From: an uncultured Alloprevotella sp.
GTDB taxonomy: Bacteria; Bacteroidota; Bacteroidia; Bacteroidales; Bacteroidaceae
NCBI GenBank assembly: GCA_944322095.1
Contig: CALUNU010000004.1
Span: 1-64,000, forward strand
DNA: 64,000 nt
Direction of reading: 5' to 3'
Position 1 is the first letter of the stretch. The number at the start of each line of letters is the position of its first letter. The translations under genes were made by a program, and so were the position numbers. The notes beneath the pieces are model-generated. The model did not search any database and was not told the DNA's origin. It saw only the letters and a program-made list of their open reading frames with translations. This document shows, one piece after another, positions 1 to 59,345 of this stretch.

Positions 1-57
1 GGTGGAGGTGCTGTGGCGCATCGTGCCTGCGGTGGTAGCGTTGCGTGTGGCGGGTGG

Positions 58-397
58 TTTTTTAACACGGAGAATCGATTATTTTCGCGCGCTTGCTCCT
101 TCGCTTGTATTTACGCGAAAATCAGAAATGCTTGATTATGAGGTGTATCCGTGCGACGCTCCGCCGCATGGACGCCCGAAAACGCGATTTTCGCCGCTAT
201 ATGGCACGTTTCGGGGCTATTTTTCCTTCAGAAACATCCCATGGATCGGAATTTCCATGGGATGGATCGGCGATTCCATGGGATGGAATTTCGAATCGGT
301 CCCATGGATGCACGAAAATGTCGCATGGACGCACGGAATCAACGCTAAAAGGCGGACGGGCGTGGGTGTCCGCTTTAACGGTTTGACATATAGCGCC
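58..397 (+). repeat. Dispersed 340-bp intergenic element, copy A
   Basis: This copy fills most of the gap left of the ABC ATPase gene. It opens with a T run followed by AACACGGAG, contains CGCTATATGGCAC near 195-207, a CCATGG-rich palindromic centre at 235-290, and ends with GTCCGCTTTAACG followed by GACATATAGCGCC. The same order of blocks and the same total length occur at 25182-25520 and, inverted, at 49001-49339. The CGCTATATGGC block and the right end are imperfect inverted repeats of each other. No protein can be supported here. Positions 1-57 hold nothing assignable. Confidence 0.8.
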
Positions 398-4977: not shown

Positions 4978-5706
4978 TCAGCGTGCCATGACGTAGGTGG
5001 TGCCGTTGGCCGTGGTGGCCGTGAGCTGGTTCTTGTCGTTCAGGCCGAGAGCGATGGAGGCTGCCTGGCCTTCGGCGGTGGTGTAGGCCACGGCGCCCGT
5101 GCCGTCGGTGAAGGAGTAGGTGCCCGATGCGTTTACGTCGGTCTGTGCTTCGTCGGCATAGTTGATCGTCACGGCGCAGGTGCCCTCTTCGTTGTCGAAG
5201 TTGAGGCCGAGCGTGTTGCCTGCGGCGTCGGTGCCCGTCCACTGGCCTACGACGTTGAACGACGTGGCGGGCTCGGCGCGGAAGCTGAGTTTTCCTGCGG
5301 TGTTGCCATTCATGATGAATTGTACGCCCATGGTCTTCAAGTCGCGTTGTAAGGCCATATTGAGTTCGGCCGGAATGCCTTGGGAAGAGGCGTCAAAGAA
5401 TACTTGTGTCATGCCGACGGCGGGATTGTATGTGACCTCGCCATTGGAAAAGATGTACCATGTGCCATATTCTTTTTCATAGAACGTGAGGTTGCAGATG
5501 GTGTCGCCCTCTTCGTTGAGCGTAAGAGAGACTGTGAAATCGCTGTAGGGCGTCGTGCTGTTCACATATTCGCACTCCCACGTGCCCAGGGCCACGTGCT
5601 GCGGATAGGTCACGAAGCCTTCGTCCTCGTCGAAGTTGTCGTTGCAGGAGGCCAGGCCCAGGCCCGCCATCAGGCAGAGCGCCAAAGTTTTGATGTATTG
5701 TTTCAT
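4978..5706 (-). CDS. Lipoprotein of unknown function in the SusCD operon
   Basis: A 242-residue protein with a lipoprotein signal peptide (cleavage before the Cys of GLASC at residue 20) followed by an acidic stretch NDNFDEDEG. Such acidic residues right after the Cys resemble lipoprotein export signals of Bacteroidota, so a surface location is plausible. The rest is predicted beta-rich with many Thr, Gly and Asn residues. It starts 27 bp after SusD and precedes the operon terminator. I do not recognise a binding or catalytic domain. Third genes of SusCD operons often encode surface glycan-binding proteins, which is only a positional hint. Confidence 0.8.
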   Translation of the reverse strand: MKQYIKTLALCLMAGLGLASCNDNFDEDEGFVTYPQHVALGTWECEYVNSTTPYSDFTVSLTLNEEGDTICNLTFYEKEYGTWYIFSNGEVTYNPAVGMTQVFFDASSQGIPAELNMALQRDLKTMGVQFIMNGNTAGKLSFRAEPATSFNVVGQWTGTDAAGNTLGLNFDNEEGTCAVTINYADEAQTDVNASGTYSFTDGTGAVAYTTAEGQAASIALGLNDKNQLTATTANGTTYVMAR

Positions 5707-5733
5707 TTCGTTTCTCTGGTTAAAGGAGTTTAC

Positions 5734-7221
5734 TTATTGATCCGTCGACTTCCAGTTGCGTTCCAAGTTGGTGTTGGCTTGGAGGTCGTTGCTGGGGATT
5801 TCCCATACGAACTTCTGGTTGTCGGCCGATATTGAGAGGTTCTGCGTGTTCATCTCGGTAGAGAGGATGGCCGTGCTGAACGATTGAGCAGGCTTACGCG
5901 TGAAACCTTCGTGCCAGCGCTTCAGGCAGTCGAGGCGGAAGCCTTCGCCCACCATTTCGCGCACCCACTCGTCCTTCATGTCCTGCACGAGCTGGTCGCC
6001 CGTGGAGCTCAGGGCCGATGCGCCACGGCTCTGGCGCAGGGTGTTGAGGTAGCCCAGGGCAGCACCCTCGTCCTTGTTGTCCTTCATCAGTTCGGCCTCG
6101 GCGGCGATGAGATAGAGCTCGGCCGAACGGAAGGCTTTCGTCATATTGTAGAAGTCCGTTTCGCTTTGACGCAGGGCGGGGTTGCCGGGATACTTGTTGA
6201 ACATGTAGCCTTCATCCCTTGCACCACCGTTGGCACTGAGGTTTACCTCTACGAAGTAGGTGCTCTTGCGGTAGTCGCTGCTTTCGTACATATCCATCAG
6301 GCCTTGCGTGGGCAGGAACGACGGATTGTAGCGGCGCAGGCTCGTGTTATAGGAGATGTAGATGCCGGCATATCCCATACCCAGCTCGTTCGGTGCAATC
6401 AGGATGGGCTGATAGATGATTTCCGACCCGGCGTCGTTGCTCCACATCGAAGCAAACGTGGCGGCGTCGCTGATGAGCGGATACTTGGCCATGAGGCTCT
6501 GTGCCTTCGTGGCGGCCTCGTCGTAGCGGTGCATGTAGAGGTCCATGCGTGCTTCCAGCGCGTCGAGGGCGTCTGTGCCCGGCTCGGTGACGGTGCCCGT
6601 CGTCTTCAGGTACTGATGGGCGCGCTCGATGTCGTCCATGATGAACTGGTAGGTGGCTTCGAGCGTTGAGCGGCGGGGCTTGGCGTTCACGTCGACTGTT
6701 TCGACGAGGGGCAGGCCCAGTTCGCCGGCAGCCGTGGCGGGCTCATAGTCCTTGCAGTAGCGCACGACCATGTTGGCGTAGGCGTAGGCGCGGGCAAAGT
6801 AGGCAGCGCCCTTGATGTTGTCGAGATAGAGCTGGTCTTCGTCGGTTTCCACCTGAATTTTATCAATGTTGTTGATAATTTCGTTGGCATTGGAAATCAA
6901 CGAATAGTTGTTGATCCATTTTGCATCTCCTGCAAACTGCATCGTGGTGAAGGACCAATCGTGCTCCTGCTGCAAGCTGGTTGCTCCAAACGTCGTGTTG
7001 AACAAGTCGGTCTGCATCTCAGATACGTACACCTGAGAGCCGCCGATGACATTACGCAGGGCAGATTGCAAGCCGACATAATAGTTCGTGGCGTCGCTCA
7101 CCTGCTCCCAGCTGTTTTCTTCCATGATGCTTCCGCGCGGAAACTGGTCCAATTCGCAGGAAGATACCAACGGCAAAAGCAGGGCCGAACCTAATATTGT
7201 CTTTGCAATATACTTATTCAT
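5734..7221 (-). CDS. SusD/RagB family outer-membrane nutrient-binding lipoprotein
   Basis: Surface lipoprotein that caps a SusC-type barrel and captures ligand. The 495-residue product has a lipobox ending LVSSC (Cys22). It then has the typical SusD N-terminal pattern (DQFPRGSI, SWEQVSDATNYYVGLQSALR), TPR-like helices (AYFARAYAYANMVVRY) and the late RSAELYLIAAEAELM plus LNTLRQSRGA pattern. It starts 31 bp after the SusC gene. The ligand cannot be read from sequence; the divergent sialidase 0.7 kb away suggests host-glycan sugars but does not prove it. Confidence 0.95.
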   Translation of the reverse strand: MNKYIAKTILGSALLLPLVSSCELDQFPRGSIMEENSWEQVSDATNYYVGLQSALRNVIGGSQVYVSEMQTDLFNTTFGATSLQQEHDWSFTTMQFAGDAKWINNYSLISNANEIINNIDKIQVETDEDQLYLDNIKGAAYFARAYAYANMVVRYCKDYEPATAAGELGLPLVETVDVNAKPRRSTLEATYQFIMDDIERAHQYLKTTGTVTEPGTDALDALEARMDLYMHRYDEAATKAQSLMAKYPLISDAATFASMWSNDAGSEIIYQPILIAPNELGMGYAGIYISYNTSLRRYNPSFLPTQGLMDMYESSDYRKSTYFVEVNLSANGGARDEGYMFNKYPGNPALRQSETDFYNMTKAFRSAELYLIAAEAELMKDNKDEGAALGYLNTLRQSRGASALSSTGDQLVQDMKDEWVREMVGEGFRLDCLKRWHEGFTRKPAQSFSTAILSTEMNTQNLSISADNQKFVWEIPSNDLQANTNLERNWKSTDQ

Positions 7222-20054: not shown

Positions 20055-20205
20055 GGTAAATTCCTAAAATATAAACCGGAGGAGGTGATAATGGTTGTTA
20101 AAATTTAGAGAGAAATGTCTCAATGTGGCAGTTTCGCTTCGAAATAGCGCGGTTCGTCGCTGCTCACCCGCCCGGAGCGGTCGTCCCGCCGTAAAACGAT
20201 TTGCG

Positions 20206-20935
20206 AGGCAGCCGTCCGCGCTGCGTTTGCGCTGTTCTGATGGTGTGGCTGCGTGGTGCATTTCCGCGGGAAACACCTGTGCTCGCTGCATACCACCGGT
20301 GTTGCTGCCGGGGCAGCCGTCCGCGCTGCGTTTGCGCTGTTCTGATGGTGCGGCTGCGTGGTGCATTTCCGCGGGAAACGCCTGTGTTCGCTGCGTACCG
20401 CCGGTGCATTCGCCGGGTCTGCCGGCCCTATCGGGGCCGCACTATTCTATAGCCGCGGGTGAGGGAAGCGAACCCGCGGAAGAGCGACAAGAGGCATGTT
20501 GGCCCCAAGGGGGGCCAACGTCTGCGGCGGTGCTTCGGTGCTGGGCGTGCATTGAGCTGCGGCGGCGGTTCAGCTTCTCTGTTGTTCGACCCCTTTGGGG
20601 CCGCAGATGGTGGATACATCTTTCCGCGGGTGAGCGGAGCGAACCCGCGGTTATAGAGTAGTGCGGCCCCGATGGGGCCGATGTCTGCGGGACAGCCGTC
20701 CGCGCTGCGTTTGCGCTGTTCTGGTGGTGCGGCTGCGTGGGGCATTTCCGCGGGAAACGCCTGTGCTTGCCGCGTACCGCCGGTGCATTCGCCGGGTCTG
20801 CCGGCCCTATCGGGGCCGCACTATTCTATAACCGCGGGTGAGGGAAGCGAACCCGCGGAAGAGCGTCAAAGGGGATGTGGGCCCCAAGGGGGTCCAACGT
20901 CTGCGGCGGTGCTTCGGCGTGCATTGAGATGTGCC
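20206..20935. repeat. Hairpin array 1
   Basis: A block of spacer units (GGCAGCCGTCCGCGCTGCG) at 20207, 20310 and 20692 alternates with a three-hairpin module. The module appears inverted at 20424-20520, direct at 20585-20682 and inverted at 20803-20900. Its hairpins are CCCCTTGGGG-type, CCGCGGGT/ACCCGCGG and GGCCCC/GGGGCC, with conserved TATAGAGTAGT between the last two. The array runs up to the dprA stop codon. Short open frames inside it repeat from copy to copy and are not credible genes. Confidence 0.9.
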
Positions 20936-23902: not shown

Positions 23903-25110
23903 CATGTCGGGCTGCGGAGATGCTCCTGCAGTCGTACTTCGCAGTTGTTCGACCCCCTTGGGGCCGCAGATGATGTGCGCCTCCCTCCGCGGGTTCGCTT
24001 CGCTCACCCGCGGTTACAGAGTAGTTCGGCCCTTTTAGGGCCGGCCGCATCAGAGGGTGGCTGTGGGTTCCGCAGGGTTCGCTTGGCTCACCCGCGGTTA
24101 CAGAGTAGTTCGGCCCTTTTAGGGCCGGCCACATCAGAGGATGGCTGTGGGTTCCGCAGGGTTCGCTTCGTTCTCTCTGCGGTTATCGCGTGACACATCT
24201 GTCGGGGCGCGTGCTTCCGCGAGGCCGACTGCCCCATCGGGGCCGCACTATTCTATAGCCGCGGGTGAGCGTAGCGAACCCGCGGAAGACCGTCAAAGGA
24301 GATGAGGGCCCCATGGGGGTCCAACGCCTGGGGCGACGCGTCAGTGCATGTCGGGTTGCGGAGATGTTCCTGCGGTCGTTCCTCGTTGTGGTTCGACCCC
24401 CTTGGGGCCGCAGATGATGTACACCTCCCTCCGCAGGGTTCGCTTGGCTCACCCGCGGTTACAGAGTAGTTCGGCCCTTTTAGGGCCGGCCACATCAGAG
24501 GGTGGCTGGCGTCTCCGCAGGGTTCGCTTGGCTCACCCGCGGTTATAGAGTAGTTCGGCCCTTTTAGGGCCGGCCGCATCGGAGGGTGGCTGGCGTCTCC
24601 GCAGGGTTCGCTTCGCTCTCTCCACGGTTATGGCGTGACACACCTGTCGGGGCGCGTGCTTCCGCGAGGCCGACGGCCCCATCGGGGCCGCACTATTCTA
24701 TAGCCGCGGGTGAGCGTAGCGAACCCGCGGAATACCGTCAAAGGAGATGAGGGCCCCATGGGGGGCCAACGCCTGGGGCGACGCGTCAGTGCATGTCGGG
24801 TTGCGAAGATGTTCTGGCAGTCGTTCCTCGCTGTGGTTCGACCCCCTTGGGGCCGCAGATGATGTGCATCTCCTTCCGCAGGGTTCGCTCCGCTCACCCG
24901 CGGTTACAGAGTAGTTCGGCCCTTTTAGGGCCGGCGGCATCAGAGGGTGGCTGGCGTCTCCGCAGGGTTCGCTTCGCTCACCCGCGGTTACAGAGTAGTT
25001 CGGCCCTTTTAGGGCCGGCGGCATCAGGGGGTGGCTGGCGTCTCCGCAGGGTTCGCTTCGCTCCCCCGCGGTTACAGAGTAGTTCGGCCCTTTTAGGGCC
25101 GGCCGCATCG
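23903..25110. repeat. Hairpin array 2 with 84-bp units nested in a 445-bp higher-order repeat
   Basis: The marker CATGTCGGG recurs at 23903, 24347 and 24792, a 444-445 bp period. Inside each period an 84-bp unit is repeated. CCGCAGGGTTCGCTT or a close variant starts at 23987, 24070 and 24154, then 24431, 24515 and 24599, then 24876, 24960 and 25044. Each 84-bp unit contains ACCCGCGGTTACAGAGTAG followed by the perfect hairpin GGCCCTTTTAGGGCC. Inverted copies of the general module sit near 24230-24330 and 24675-24770. No credible gene inside. Confidence 0.93.
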
Positions 25111-25181: not shown

Positions 25182-25520
25182 TTTTTTAACACGGAGCGTA
25201 CTTTGTTTTCGGGCACGTGCATCTTTGACTGCATTTGCACGAATAATGGAAATGCTTGATATATAGGAGGAAAGGACTCTTTCTTTACTTCGAGGTTACC
25301 TGGAAACGCGAATTTTGCCGCTATATGGCGTAAATGAGGCCGAATTTTTCATCCGAAACATCCCGTGGAGCTCGATACCGATGGGATGGATCGGCCGATC
25401 CATCCCATCGATTTTCAGAAACATCTCATGGATGGATGCGGCAGGGCCCTGCGGGAGCCGTTGAAGCGCTGAAAAGCGTGTGGGTACGGCTGTCCGCTTT
25501 AACGCTTTGCCAAATGGCGC
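25182..25520 (+). repeat. Dispersed 339-bp intergenic element, copy B
   Basis: Begins with six T and AACACGGAG, as copy A does. It contains GGAAATGCTTGAT and CCGCTATATGGCG near 25317-25330, a perfect 32-bp palindrome at 25379-25410, and ends GTCCGCTTTAACGCTTTGCC then AAATGGCGC. Same order and length as copies A and D. Lies between hairpin array 2 and a terminator. Confidence 0.85.
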
Positions 25521-28603: not shown

Positions 28604-29985
28604 GAGCTGCGGCGGTGGTTCGGCTTCTCTGTTGTTCGACCCCCTTGGGGCCGCAGATGGTGGATGCATCTTTCCGCGGGTTCGCTCTGCTCCCCCCGCG
28701 GTTATAGAGTAGTGCGGCCCCGATGGGGCCGATGTCTGCGGGGCAGTCGTCAGCGTTGCGTTTGCGCTGTTCTGATGGTGTGGCTGCGTGGTGCATCTCC
28801 GCGGAAATCGCTCATGGCCGCGGCGTACCTCTGGTGCGTTCGCCGGTTCTGCCGGCCCTATTGGGGCCGCACTATTCTATAGCCGCGGGTGAGGGAAGCG
28901 AACCCGCGGAATACCGTCAAAGGAGATGTGGGCCCCAAGGGGGTCCAACGCCTGTGGCGGTGGTTCAGTGCTGGGCGTGCATTGAGCTGCGGCGGTGGTT
29001 CGGCTTCTCTGTTGTTCGACCCCCTTGGGGCCGCAGATGGTGGATACATCTTTCCGCGGGTTCGCTCTGCTCACCCGCGGTTATAGAGTAGTGCGGCCCC
29101 GATGGGGCCGATGTCTGCGGGGCAGCCGTCCGCGCTGCGTTCGTGCTGTTCTGATGGCGTGGCTGCGTGGGGCATTTCCGCGGAAATCGCTCATGGCCGC
29201 GGCGTACCTCTGGTGCATTCGTCGGGTCTGCCGGCCCTATCGGGGCCGATGTCTGCGGGGCAGCCGTCCGCGCTGCGTTCGTGCTGTTCTGATGGCGTGG
29301 CTGCGTGGGGCATTTCCGCGGAAATCGCTCATGGCCGCGGCGTACCTCTGGTGCGTTCGCCGGGTCTGCCGGCCCTATCGGGGCCGCACTATTCTATAGC
29401 CGCGGGTGAGGGAAGCGAACCCGCGGAAGAGCGTCAAAGGGGATGGTGGGCCCCAAGGGGATCCAACGCCTGTGGCGGTGCTTCGGTACTGGGCGTGCAT
29501 TGAGCTGCGGCGGTGGTTCGGCTTCTCTGTTGTTCGACCCCTTTGGGGCCGCAGATGGTGGATGCATCTTTCCGCGGGTTCGCTCTGCTCACCCGCGGTT
29601 ATAGAGAAGTGCGGCCCCGATGGGGCCGATGTCTGCGGGGCAGCCGTCCGCGCTGCGTTTGCGCTGTTCTGATGGTGCGGCTGCGTGGGGCATTTCCGCG
29701 GGTTCGCTCTGCTCCCCCCCCCCCCGCGGTTATAGAGTAGTGCGGCCCCGATGGGGCCGATGTCTGCGGGGCAGTCGTCAGCGTTGCGTTTGCGCTGTTC
29801 TGATGGCGTGGCTGCGTGGGGCATTTCCGCGGAAATCGCTCATGGCCGCGGCGTACCTCTGGTGCGTTCGCCGGGTCTGCCGGCCCTATCGGGGCCGCAC
29901 TATTTTATAGCCGCGGGTGAGGGAAGCGAACCCGCGGAAGAGCGTCAAAGGAGATGTGGGCCCCAAGGGGGTCCAACGCCTGTGG
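28604..29985. repeat. Hairpin array 3
   Basis: Alternating direct and inverted copies of the three-hairpin module. Direct copies lie near 28636-28735, 29017-29112, 29533-29635 and 29695-29765. Inverted copies lie near 28850-28950, 29380-29475 and 29880-29980. They are separated by the GGCAGCCGTCCGCGCTGCG spacer and a GAGCTGCGGCGGTGGTTCGG spacer. The interval between GAGCTGCGG markers is 380 bp for the first pair and 518 bp for the second because one spacer unit is duplicated. One hairpin loop contains a run of 12 C at 29714-29725. No credible gene inside. Confidence 0.9.
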
Positions 29986-30038
29986 TGCAACGTATGCGTA
30001 CGGTTGCGGCACTGCACGCGCAGGTGCAAAAAAGAAAA

Positions 30039-34829: not shown

Positions 34830-35351
34830 CTTGCGCCCGTGGTTGGCGGGGGCGTTTTTCGCGCGCGTATATATATAAGGTGTGGGGGTAGGGGGCATGC
34901 AGCGAGGCCAGCGCCCCCAAGGGGGGCGAACTATTCTATAACCGCGGGTAAGCGCAGCGCGCCCGCGGTTGGCGGGGGGCGTTTTTCGCGCGCGTATATA
35001 TATAAGGTGTGGGGGTAGGGGGCATGCAGCGAGGCCAGCGCCCCCAAGGGGGGCGAACTATTCTATAACCGCGGGTAAGCGCAGCGCGCCCGCGGAAAGT
35101 CGACGCATATATATGTTGGCCCCAAGGGGGGCCAACCGCCGCGAGAAAACATCACGCACACCCCATGTCTCGCAAACGCCATGCGTCGTGCCTCGCGGGC
35201 GTTCGACCCCCTTGGGGCCGAAGTGGAGAGGGGAGCCCTGTCCGCGGGCGCGCTTCGCTTACCCGCGGTTATAGAGTAGTTCGACCGCTTTGCGGCCGCT
35301 TGCCTCGCGGAGTGCTGGCTGTCTCCATCCGCATGGGATGTCCGCCACCTG

Positions 35352-35373
35352 GAGGCGCGATGAATCGCGTCTC
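35352..35373. repeat. Short hairpin repeat, copy 3
   Basis: GAGGCGCGAT GA ATCGCGTCTC. Here it is part of a longer imperfect palindrome with outer arms GGATGTCCGC and GCGGACATCC. Confidence 0.75.
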
Positions 35374-35604
35374 TACGCAGCGGACATCCAGCCTCGCTGC
35401 TATGTGCCGCGCCCTCGTGCGGCCATGCTTGCGCAGGGGCGATTTTCCCCCGTAACCGACCCCCTTGGGGCCGAAGTGGAGAGGGGAGCCCTGTCCGCGG
35501 GCGCGCTTCGCTTACACGCGGTTATAGAGTAGTTCGACCGCTTTGCGGCCGCATGCCTCGCGGAGTGCTGGCTGTCTCCATCCGCATGGGATGTCCGCCA
35601 CCTA

Positions 35605-35626
35605 GAGGCGCGATGAATCGCGTCTC
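35605..35626. repeat. Short hairpin repeat, copy 4
   Basis: Same as copy 3, carried in the second 253-bp unit of array 4. Confidence 0.75.
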
Positions 35627-35845
35627 TACGCAGCGGACATCCAGCCTCGCTGCTATGTGCCGCGCCCTCGTGCGGCCATGCTTGCACAGGGGTGATTTTC
35701 CCCCGTAACCGGACTGTGAAGGGCTCAGGAGTTGGCTGTTTGGAGAGAGATGTTTCGCGGCTCCGTTTGGCGCGAAAATGGGAAACGTCAGGGTATGAGG
35801 CGGTTAGCTTCGGAGGGGCGTGCGCGAGGTGCGCGATTGGGCGTT

Positions 35846-36022
35846 TTTCGCCACTATATGGCACAAAATCGGTGGGATGTTTGCCCTGGAGAGTGCCCAT
35901 GGAACGAAAAAAGCATCCCATGGATCGGCCGATCCATGGGATGTTGTGGCGGAGGGGTGGGATGGATGCCCCGTATGCCCCTCTTCGAACGCTGGAAGGA
36001 GCGCGGAGGCATGTCGCAATTT
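35846..36022 (+). repeat. Dispersed intergenic element, diverged copy C
   Basis: CGCCACTATATGGCAC at 35850 matches the internal block of copies A and B, and a perfect 30-bp palindrome lies at 35914-35943. The T-rich left end and the GTCCGCTTTAACG right end of the full copies are not recognisable, so this is a partial or diverged relative. It lies 50 bp before the S41 protease stop. Confidence 0.6.
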
Positions 36023-49000: not shown

Positions 49001-49339
49001 TGCGCCATATGGCAAAACGTTAAAGCGGACGCGCGCCTCCGTCCACCTTTCAGGCTTGTCGCGGCGTCGGGGAGAGATTTCGGGCCGACTCCGTGGGAGG
49101 TTTCGGAAAATCCATGGGACGGATTGCAGGTTTCAAGGGATGGATCGCTCGATCCATGGGGTGTTCCGACAAAGAAAAAGGTTCAGATTTGTGTCATGTA
49201 GCGTCAAAAAAAGCCCCCGCCGCAGGTTTTGCGGGAGAGCTTTTTTCGTTTGTTTCTCATTGTCAGTATTTTCTGATTTTCGTTCATTTGCGTGCGGTGG
49301 AGCGTGCGGCGAAAAATATCGTATTCTCTGTGTTAAAAA
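49001..49339 (-). repeat. Dispersed 339-bp intergenic element, copy D (inverted)
   Basis: Read on the minus strand it begins TTTTTAACACAGAGAATACG. It continues with ACGAAAATCAGAAAAT, CGCTACATGACAC, a palindromic centre (ATGGATCG...CGATCCAT at 49140-49157) and ends GTCCGCTTTAACGTTTTGCC then ATATGGCGC. It matches copies A and B block by block and in length. A hairpin with poly-A and poly-T edges (about 49205-49245) lies inside it. Positions 48881-49000 and 49340-49640 hold no supported gene. Confidence 0.85.
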
Positions 49340-49642
49340 GATGTCTTTCCATCCTTTCATACGCCGCTCCTCAGCCTTTGTGCGGGAGCAGCTGTCTGCT
49401 TTTCCGTCTCGCTCTGCTTGCGTGTTTTTTCAACGAATGAGCCGGGGTGTACAGTCGTCCGGGCTGGTCCCGGACGCGATTGTCTCTGTCTTCCCGGGTT
49501 TAGGTTGAGCCCTCTGTCAGGTCCTGTCGGGCGGCCTGTCCGTCGGGCAGGCGCGGCTCGGGCATGGCATACGTCAGGAGGCTCTATTGCAAATAGTTGC
49601 AGATGCTTTTGCTGTGTGTGGCGGCTAACGGTGTGAAAAAAA

Positions 49643-58953: not shown

Positions 58954-59204
58954 GTGTTTCTCTGCGATATATCTGTCACGTTGGCCCGTTTTCTGTGCTC
59001 CGCCCTGTCCATCTGTCGGCCGCGGCCGCCGCGGCGGGCCGCCCGCCGACTGCGCGTGCCGGACTTTCAACGCTTCGTGGCGGGCCCCGCAGCCGCGCGC
59101 CGCCACCCTTGCGCCGTGCGTGGCTCCTCACGGAGCATCGGGCGTATGCTTTTTTTAACGCATGCGGCCATTTCCCCCCTCCACGGCCCCTTTGCGCACA
59201 GGCA

Positions 59205-59345
59205 TGGGATGGAATGGCCGTTCCATCCCATGGATCGGCCGATCCATGGGATGTTTCGCCACAACCAAGGCCTGCAAATTTTCGTCGAAGACCGCTTTTC
59301 GATGCCTTTACGGCTCATTTTTTGGGGAAAAGTCTGAATTTTATT
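59205..59345 (-). repeat. Dispersed intergenic element, diverged copy E
   Basis: Contains a perfect 30-bp palindrome at 59224-59253 identical in sequence to that of copy C. A second inverted repeat, GGGATGGAA/TTCCATCCC, lies just to its left. The ends of the full 339-bp copies are not recognisable. The rest of 58954-59886 holds no supported gene. Confidence 0.6.

Follow-up and report, generated by a model that had tools for sequence, protein, structure and literature searches.

A dispersed 339-bp intergenic repeat with helically phased A/T steps in two sister species of Bacteroidales

Three copies of one element

The window, the 64,000-bp stretch of DNA analyzed here, is part of contig C4 in the 2.34-Mb draft genome of an uncultured Bacteroidales bacterium and has a G+C content of 61.7%. 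It contains three full-length copies of a short repeat, each a 339-bp A/T-rich island within G+C-rich DNA. Two relatives without ends lie in the same window (Table 1).

A first-pass annotation had proposed that three segments share the same succession of blocks and are equal in length to within one base. Both statements hold: the alignment extends over the full length with the named blocks in order, and the profile assigns exactly 339 bp to all three copies. The coordinates shift by at most one base. Similarity is not limited to the palindrome, nor do the ends differ between copies. Since the ends are the most conserved parts, the repeat is a defined element with ends of its own.

Judged by eye, the CGCTATATGGC block and the right end (GCCATATAGCGC) are related as inverted repeats. 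TTTTTTAACACGGAG and the right end, also compared by eye, are not reverse complements of each other; CTATATGGC and GCCATATAG form a subterminal pair. Between the two phased arms lies a palindromic core, with dyads at element positions 213.5, 224 and 234.5. In copy 1 Tandem Repeats Finder splits this core into 241-287 and 292-340, both with period 21. Copies 2 and 3 have diverged most and show weak phasing; copy 2 has its orthologue (B41) at the same site in a sister species.

Table 1. Copies, parts and relatives of the element in the window.
Feature	Position	Strand	Basis
Copy 1 (A18), full length, 339 bp	58..396	+	nhmmer profile 1-339; 10.6-bp phasing power 11.5, 0/200 shuffles as high
Copy 2 (A33), full length, 339 bp	25182..25520	+	Profile; weak phasing, power 3.4, 8/200 shuffles as high
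Copy 3 (A35), full length, 339 bp	49002..49340	-	Profile; weak phasing, power 3.7, 4/200 shuffles as high
Left shoulder, ~28 bp, part of the hypervariable unit in other copies	30..57	+	Given to copy 1 by position only
Conserved left end TTTTTTAACACGGAGA	58..73	+	No variation at columns 3-10 among 58 copies
Main helically phased arm (element ~71-203)	128..260	+	Power at 10.6 bp reaches 13.7 in 42-bp windows; phase near-constant
Core of ~21-bp (two-turn) units with TCCAT-GGG/CCC-ATGGA palindromes	241..340	+	Tandem Repeats Finder
Second phased arm (element ~246-315)	303..372	+	Power 3.6-6.8 per window, phase 4.0-4.4
Conserved right end, CGTCCGCTTTAACGGTTTGCCATATAGCGC-type, usually then ACA	367..396	+	56 matches across the genome, none in the control
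Partial or degenerate relative, profile 57-305, without ends	35771..36009	+	nhmmer 105 bits
Core-only relative, palindromic 21-bp units, without ends	59178..59311	-	Surroundings strongly phased, power 13.4

The core-only relative at 59.2 kb sits inside the most strongly 10.6-bp-phased stretch of the window. Further core-only or partial relatives lacking the conserved ends occur at loci L102, L103 and L104. Within TCCAT-NNN-ATGGA the loop flips from GGG to CCC (window 235-290; columns 202-204 and 244-246 of alignment A2), a change that template-switch inversion at a small hairpin would be expected to produce. Some copies (e.g. L119, L126) carry at columns ~100-135 of the same alignment a terminator-like hairpin (GGCCCTCCCGC...GCGGCGAGGGCCTTTTTT) in place of the usual segment. 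The replacement is of equal length and leaves the element length unchanged.

A family found in two species

Three copies understate the family. The DNA that we read consisted of stretches around the copies and samples of one contig. A search for the right-end pattern with up to three mismatches returns 56 sites in this genome (forward 27, reverse 29); the reversed pattern, run on the same genome as a control, returns none. One sister species (G016) has 51 right ends. Among GTDB genomes the exact right-end pattern was found only in 'uncultured Bacteroidales bacterium isolate B53_L1_309309_idba_bin.126', and a right-end search of 56 other genomes of the genus gave no element copy. Because the element is restricted to two species, no widely conserved function depends on it.

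A candidate distant relative in another genome of the genus (G061) was rejected: its two three-mismatch end matches belong to an unrelated repeat of ~160 bp without 10.6-bp phasing. A phage or plasmid origin was likewise rejected, with 0 matches in viral contigs, phages and plasmids.

Length changes by two helical turns

Element length is nearly constant. We compared 103 full copies, 56 from this genome and 47 from the sister species. Exactly 339 bp are found in 76 of them, and 20 are longer by a step of 21 or 42 bp (19 at 360 bp, one at 381 bp). The rest measure 338, 340 (three copies), 359 and 322 bp, plus a degenerate copy of 401 bp. The added 21 bp are one more core unit. A step of 21 bp corresponds to two helical turns and thus leaves the phase intact.

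Orthologous copies behave in the same way. The length difference is 0 in 21 of 41 pairs, 21 bp in 14 and 42 bp in one, so that 36 pairs differ by 0, 21 or 42 bp and five by other amounts. Apart from the 21-bp steps, indels between orthologues are nearly nil.

Neither a gene nor an RNA family

A length of 339 bp (3 x 113), with core units of 21 bp (3 x 7), could belong to a short protein-coding gene or a gene remnant, and one forward frame is free of stops in 40 of 84 copies. The same frame has stops in the other 44, there is no apparent start codon at the left end, and changes are equal in the three codon phases (84/87/87 in close pairs; entropies 0.74/0.76/0.77). The codon-phase result refutes a coding element, and we give this reading next to no credence.

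The first-pass annotation had also offered a structured RNA family. Fixed length would suit such a family, as would, close to the right end, a GC-rich hairpin with a short run of T (GGCGGAC...GTCCGCTTT) and the internal terminator-like hairpin of some copies. Against it, the consensus fold of 58 sequences is weak (-3.28 kcal/mol, 12 pairs, one two-sided change) and Rfam gives no match. The strongest column covariation is not of the Watson-Crick type and mainly couples adjacent or nearby columns. A structured RNA is therefore very improbable.

The strongest couplings are block swaps, for example GGG to CCC or AA to TT. Such swaps keep the distinction between weak (A/T, W) and strong (G/C, S) bases.

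A/T steps follow the helical repeat

The strongest A/T period is 10.6 bp, the helical repeat. Mean Fourier power per copy at this period is 11.7, compared to ~1.0 in shuffled sequence, and 78 of 84 copies exceed all 200 shuffles; because the copies are homologous and not independent, these per-copy statistics overstate the evidence. The phase is near-constant at ~4-5 bp across element positions ~64 to 339 (~275 bp), inside as well as outside the 21-bp core. Phasing is strongest in the main arm, and the second arm is in the same phase. AA/TT steps fall at phase 4.0 bp, GC at 8.9 and GG/CC at 9.3. This half-turn offset is the arrangement expected of anisotropically bendable DNA.

The W/S pattern is kept better than the bases. 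Between copies, W/S identity is 0.83 and base identity 0.70. Changes that preserve W/S make up 43% of those between orthologues, compared to 29% in the flanks. We also simulated divergence by applying the observed number of changes to one species' copy with a neutral spectrum. Real orthologues have a phasing power of 13.2, compared to 9.6 when simulated changes fall on the same positions (exceeded in 18 of 20 pairs) and 6.1 when they fall on random positions (20 of 20). Since orthologues keep more phasing than neutral simulation, we read this as selection on DNA shape.

A wedge model predicts marked curvature: the ratio of end-to-end to contour length is 0.79 for elements, 0.945 for flanks and 0.931 for shuffled sequence.

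Power at 10.6 bp is raised over the whole window (mean 1.8, compared to ~0.8-1.0 at other periods). Stretches outside the element reach similar power, some of them inside predicted genes; hence phasing is not unique to the element. Further window peaks of 10.6-bp A/T periodicity lie at 14.2, 20.1, 21.3, 29.1 and 61.0 kb.

Accelerated divergence and gene conversion

Elements diverge faster than their surroundings. Mean divergence between orthologous elements is 0.217, compared to 0.108 at four-fold degenerate sites of neighboring genes (28 pairs). Flanks of orthologues are often 90-99% identical, whereas the elements are not. In the pair A03/B12, the upstream flanks match fully over ~90 bp, ending 28 bp short of the left end (TTTTTTAACACG), and the element itself differs at 26% of its positions. 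Averaged identity shows a hypervariable zone from ~-40 to ~+30-60 around the 339 bp. Within the element, orthologue identity is 94% over the first 20 bp and 89% over the last 19 bp. Three pairs are well conserved throughout (A19/B13, A23/B18, A29/B44).

Simple replacement from a single donor does not account for this pattern. Mean ungapped identity is 0.79 between orthologues, 0.69 over all inter-species pairs and 0.70 within species. Orthologues are closer than random inter-species pairs, and thus copies have not been wholly replaced. Some copies are nevertheless far closer to copies in the same genome than to their own orthologues (A02/A05/A16 at 93-94%, A21/A22 at 96%, and A03/A10), and these similarities indicate gene conversion between copies.

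Gene conversion is central to the main rival of an architectural reading. According to this rival, a once-mobile MITE-like repeat spread in the common ancestor of both species and is now immobile and without function. Frequent ectopic gene conversion, favoring colinear partners of equal length, would then produce both the constant length and the excess divergence. The presence of ~50 copies in both orientations and in only two sister species agrees with this history. So do the concerted within-species clusters (A02/A05/A16, A21/A22), which exist although each site has its own orthologue. Genome rearrangement breakpoints lie on copies (A08, A27/A28, A38, A12/A44); at A08, A27, A28 and A38, the flank on each side matches that of a different sister-species copy. 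When copies are modeled as mosaics of other copies, divergence drops from 0.166-0.209 to 0.122-0.149, although column-shuffled pools also gain somewhat.

However, conversion alone leaves unexplained why W/S helical phase stays above neutral simulation. It also leaves unexplained the two-turn length steps, the minimum spacing of 5.85 kb and the indel-free diversity of the pool. Comparison of the flanks reveals no target-site duplication, with shared words no longer than in mispaired flanks. Of the MITE-like character first proposed, dispersal, both orientations and restriction to one lineage thus remain; no target-site duplication was found, nor an empty site in the compared parts of the two genomes, and neutral decay does not explain the lack of indels. 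We regard an immobilized MITE-like family homogenized by gene conversion as unlikely, if worth serious attention.

Sites and spacing

A simple codon-usage gene caller places 83 of the first 84 copies between genes. A terminator or promoter role inferred from neighboring genes was rejected, as gene orientation has no bias and all four arrangements occur. Element orientation is also uncorrelated with local GC skew, which rejects a link to the replication strand.

Flank comparison puts most copies at the same site and in the same orientation in both species. In the compared parts of each genome no site is empty in one species and occupied in the other, and most sister-species copies have an orthologous copy. 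Copies are spaced apart: neighbors lie at least 5.85 kb apart in this genome (5.88 kb in the sister species), and none of 40 gaps is below 5 kb, with 8.7 expected at random.

Copies do not cover the whole chromosome. By subtraction, contigs without any right end total ~850 kb of this genome. In the sister species, a 689-kb contig carries just one copy, located 29 kb from the contig end. The gene dnaA lies ~4 kb from a copy; the gene for ribosomal protein L4 is found on C9 of the sister species and, in this genome, on a short contig. In contig C1 of the sister species (G016:C1, loci L135-L154), ~660 kb are without full copies and G+C is generally lower (0.49-0.63).

Comparison with known systems

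Several known repeats share parts of this description. BOX elements of Streptococcus pneumoniae have conserved ends around a variable number of internal units, lie between genes and occur in many copies, as the element does. The BOX-B unit is ~45 bp long, BOX has no criterion of helical phasing, and it is usually discussed as RNA or MITE-like. MITEs are likewise short, non-coding, dispersed and found in both orientations. Unlike them, the element has neither target-site duplication nor a cognate transposase that we could find, its sites are stable between species and its length is constrained.

Enterobacterial BIME-2 and REP sequences resemble the element in being intergenic, dispersed, palindromic and modular. 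REPs form variable, often alternating arrays of palindromic units of 20-40 bp (PMC3733652), whereas the element is one fixed 339-bp unit with defined ends and two-turn steps, phased over its whole length; only its core is an array, of 21-bp units. Mobilization by a REP-associated tyrosine transposase (RAYT) has in its favor that the element is intergenic, palindromic and dispersed, and that this genome holds one Y1_Tnp gene (C26:6828-7175). In the 5 kb examined around that gene there is no element copy (none within ~2.3 kb), so a linked RAYT was not found. Other genomes of the genus have Y1_Tnp genes without the element, and 339 bp is far above REP length. A RAYT-mobilized REP or BIME is quite improbable.

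In the published gyrase motif, two arms with a GC periodicity of 10.75 bp lie around a 36-bp center (PMC6379681), and BIME-2 repeats act as strong gyrase sites in Escherichia coli. The element resembles the strong gyrase site of phage Mu and the E. coli cleavage motif in its helically phased G/C and A/T arms, its less phased center and its apparent indirect readout (PMC6379681, PMC12393610). Phased arms around a center are found in the element, weakly in window copies 2 and 3. It differs in that phasing extends over ~275 bp rather than 130 bp and that there are ~50 copies. The genome-wide A-tract periodicity of prokaryotes (PMC3940949, PMC516772) is the same physical signal, here concentrated in a discrete, homologous repeat family of fixed length.

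By analogy the element may function like a BIME or a strong gyrase site; as a class it departs from REP/BIME and structured RNA, and from MITEs in lacking target-site duplications. We rate it as a dispersed intergenic repeat with a probable architectural role.

A proposed role in DNA architecture

Among the first proposals, a chromosome-organization site is the best supported, by helical phasing, two-turn length steps, even spacing and conserved positions. We put the probability that the family is a dispersed DNA-architecture element, made for bending or wrapping, at roughly 0.6. The family, its lengths, sites, phasing, spacing and accelerated divergence are observed; its curvature in solution, its wrapping, the protein involved and the cellular role are what we infer from the pattern. 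Against this reading, two of the three window copies are weakly phased, and the raised 10.6-bp power elsewhere in the window and the restriction to two species also weigh against it.

The mechanism that we propose is as follows. Fixed ends would enclose ~26 helical turns, with AA/TT steps on one face of the helix, opposite the GC and GG/CC steps. The predicted result of these opposed faces is DNA that is curved or wraps easily. The core of 21-bp palindromic units could gain one unit, exactly two turns, with the phase unbroken. Each copy would be wrapped by a protein that recognizes the shape of DNA and not its letters, and the wrapped copies would form spaced nucleoprotein or supercoil-handling nodes across the copy-rich part of the chromosome. 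If letters matter little, copies would be free to drift and to swap by inter-copy recombination, while length and phase are retained.

Which protein would bind is a more tentative matter. The best single candidate, though a doubtful one, is DNA gyrase, by analogy with strong gyrase sites and BIME-2. It is reasonable because the published motif has phased arms and BIME-2 repeats act as strong gyrase sites. Against gyrase, the phased stretch of ~275 bp is about twice a gyrase footprint, and the motif compared is not from Bacteroidales. HU/IHF-type or other nucleoid proteins are alternatives.

It is possible, but speculative, that the copies are 'wrapping cassettes': ~50 positionally fixed, evenly spaced loci selected for helical phase and not for sequence, and wrapped by gyrase or a nucleoid protein into nodes that set supercoiling domains over part of the chromosome. 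If so, they would be a bacterial analogue of nucleosome-positioning DNA that lengthens or shortens solely in steps of two full turns.

That bacterial DNA shows phased A/T periodicity is an old observation with no clear role attached to it. Here ~100 natural sequence variants keep length and phase but not letters, which makes indirect readout directly testable. If gyrase or nucleoid proteins do wrap the copies, these would offer a ready set of natural, spaced chromosome-organizing loci in Bacteroidales, and an example of selection on DNA shape.

A second repeat family

The window also contains a second, unrelated dispersed family with units of 84-138 bp (CCGCGGTTAYAGAGNAGTKCGGCCC...GGGCCG) in tandem arrays, at 23903-25109, 28900-30000, 20200-20900 and 34830-35711. 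Its 84-bp units reach ~13.5 per 100 kb in loci rich in copies of the element; a 240-kb sample of the sister species' copy-poor contig contains none. A stretch at L184 690-1591 (G000:C26 ~5190-6090) is similar to intergenic repeats of the window and elsewhere and lies within ~1 kb of the only Y1 transposase gene. The stretch may belong to this second repeat family, which would then have a RAYT link.
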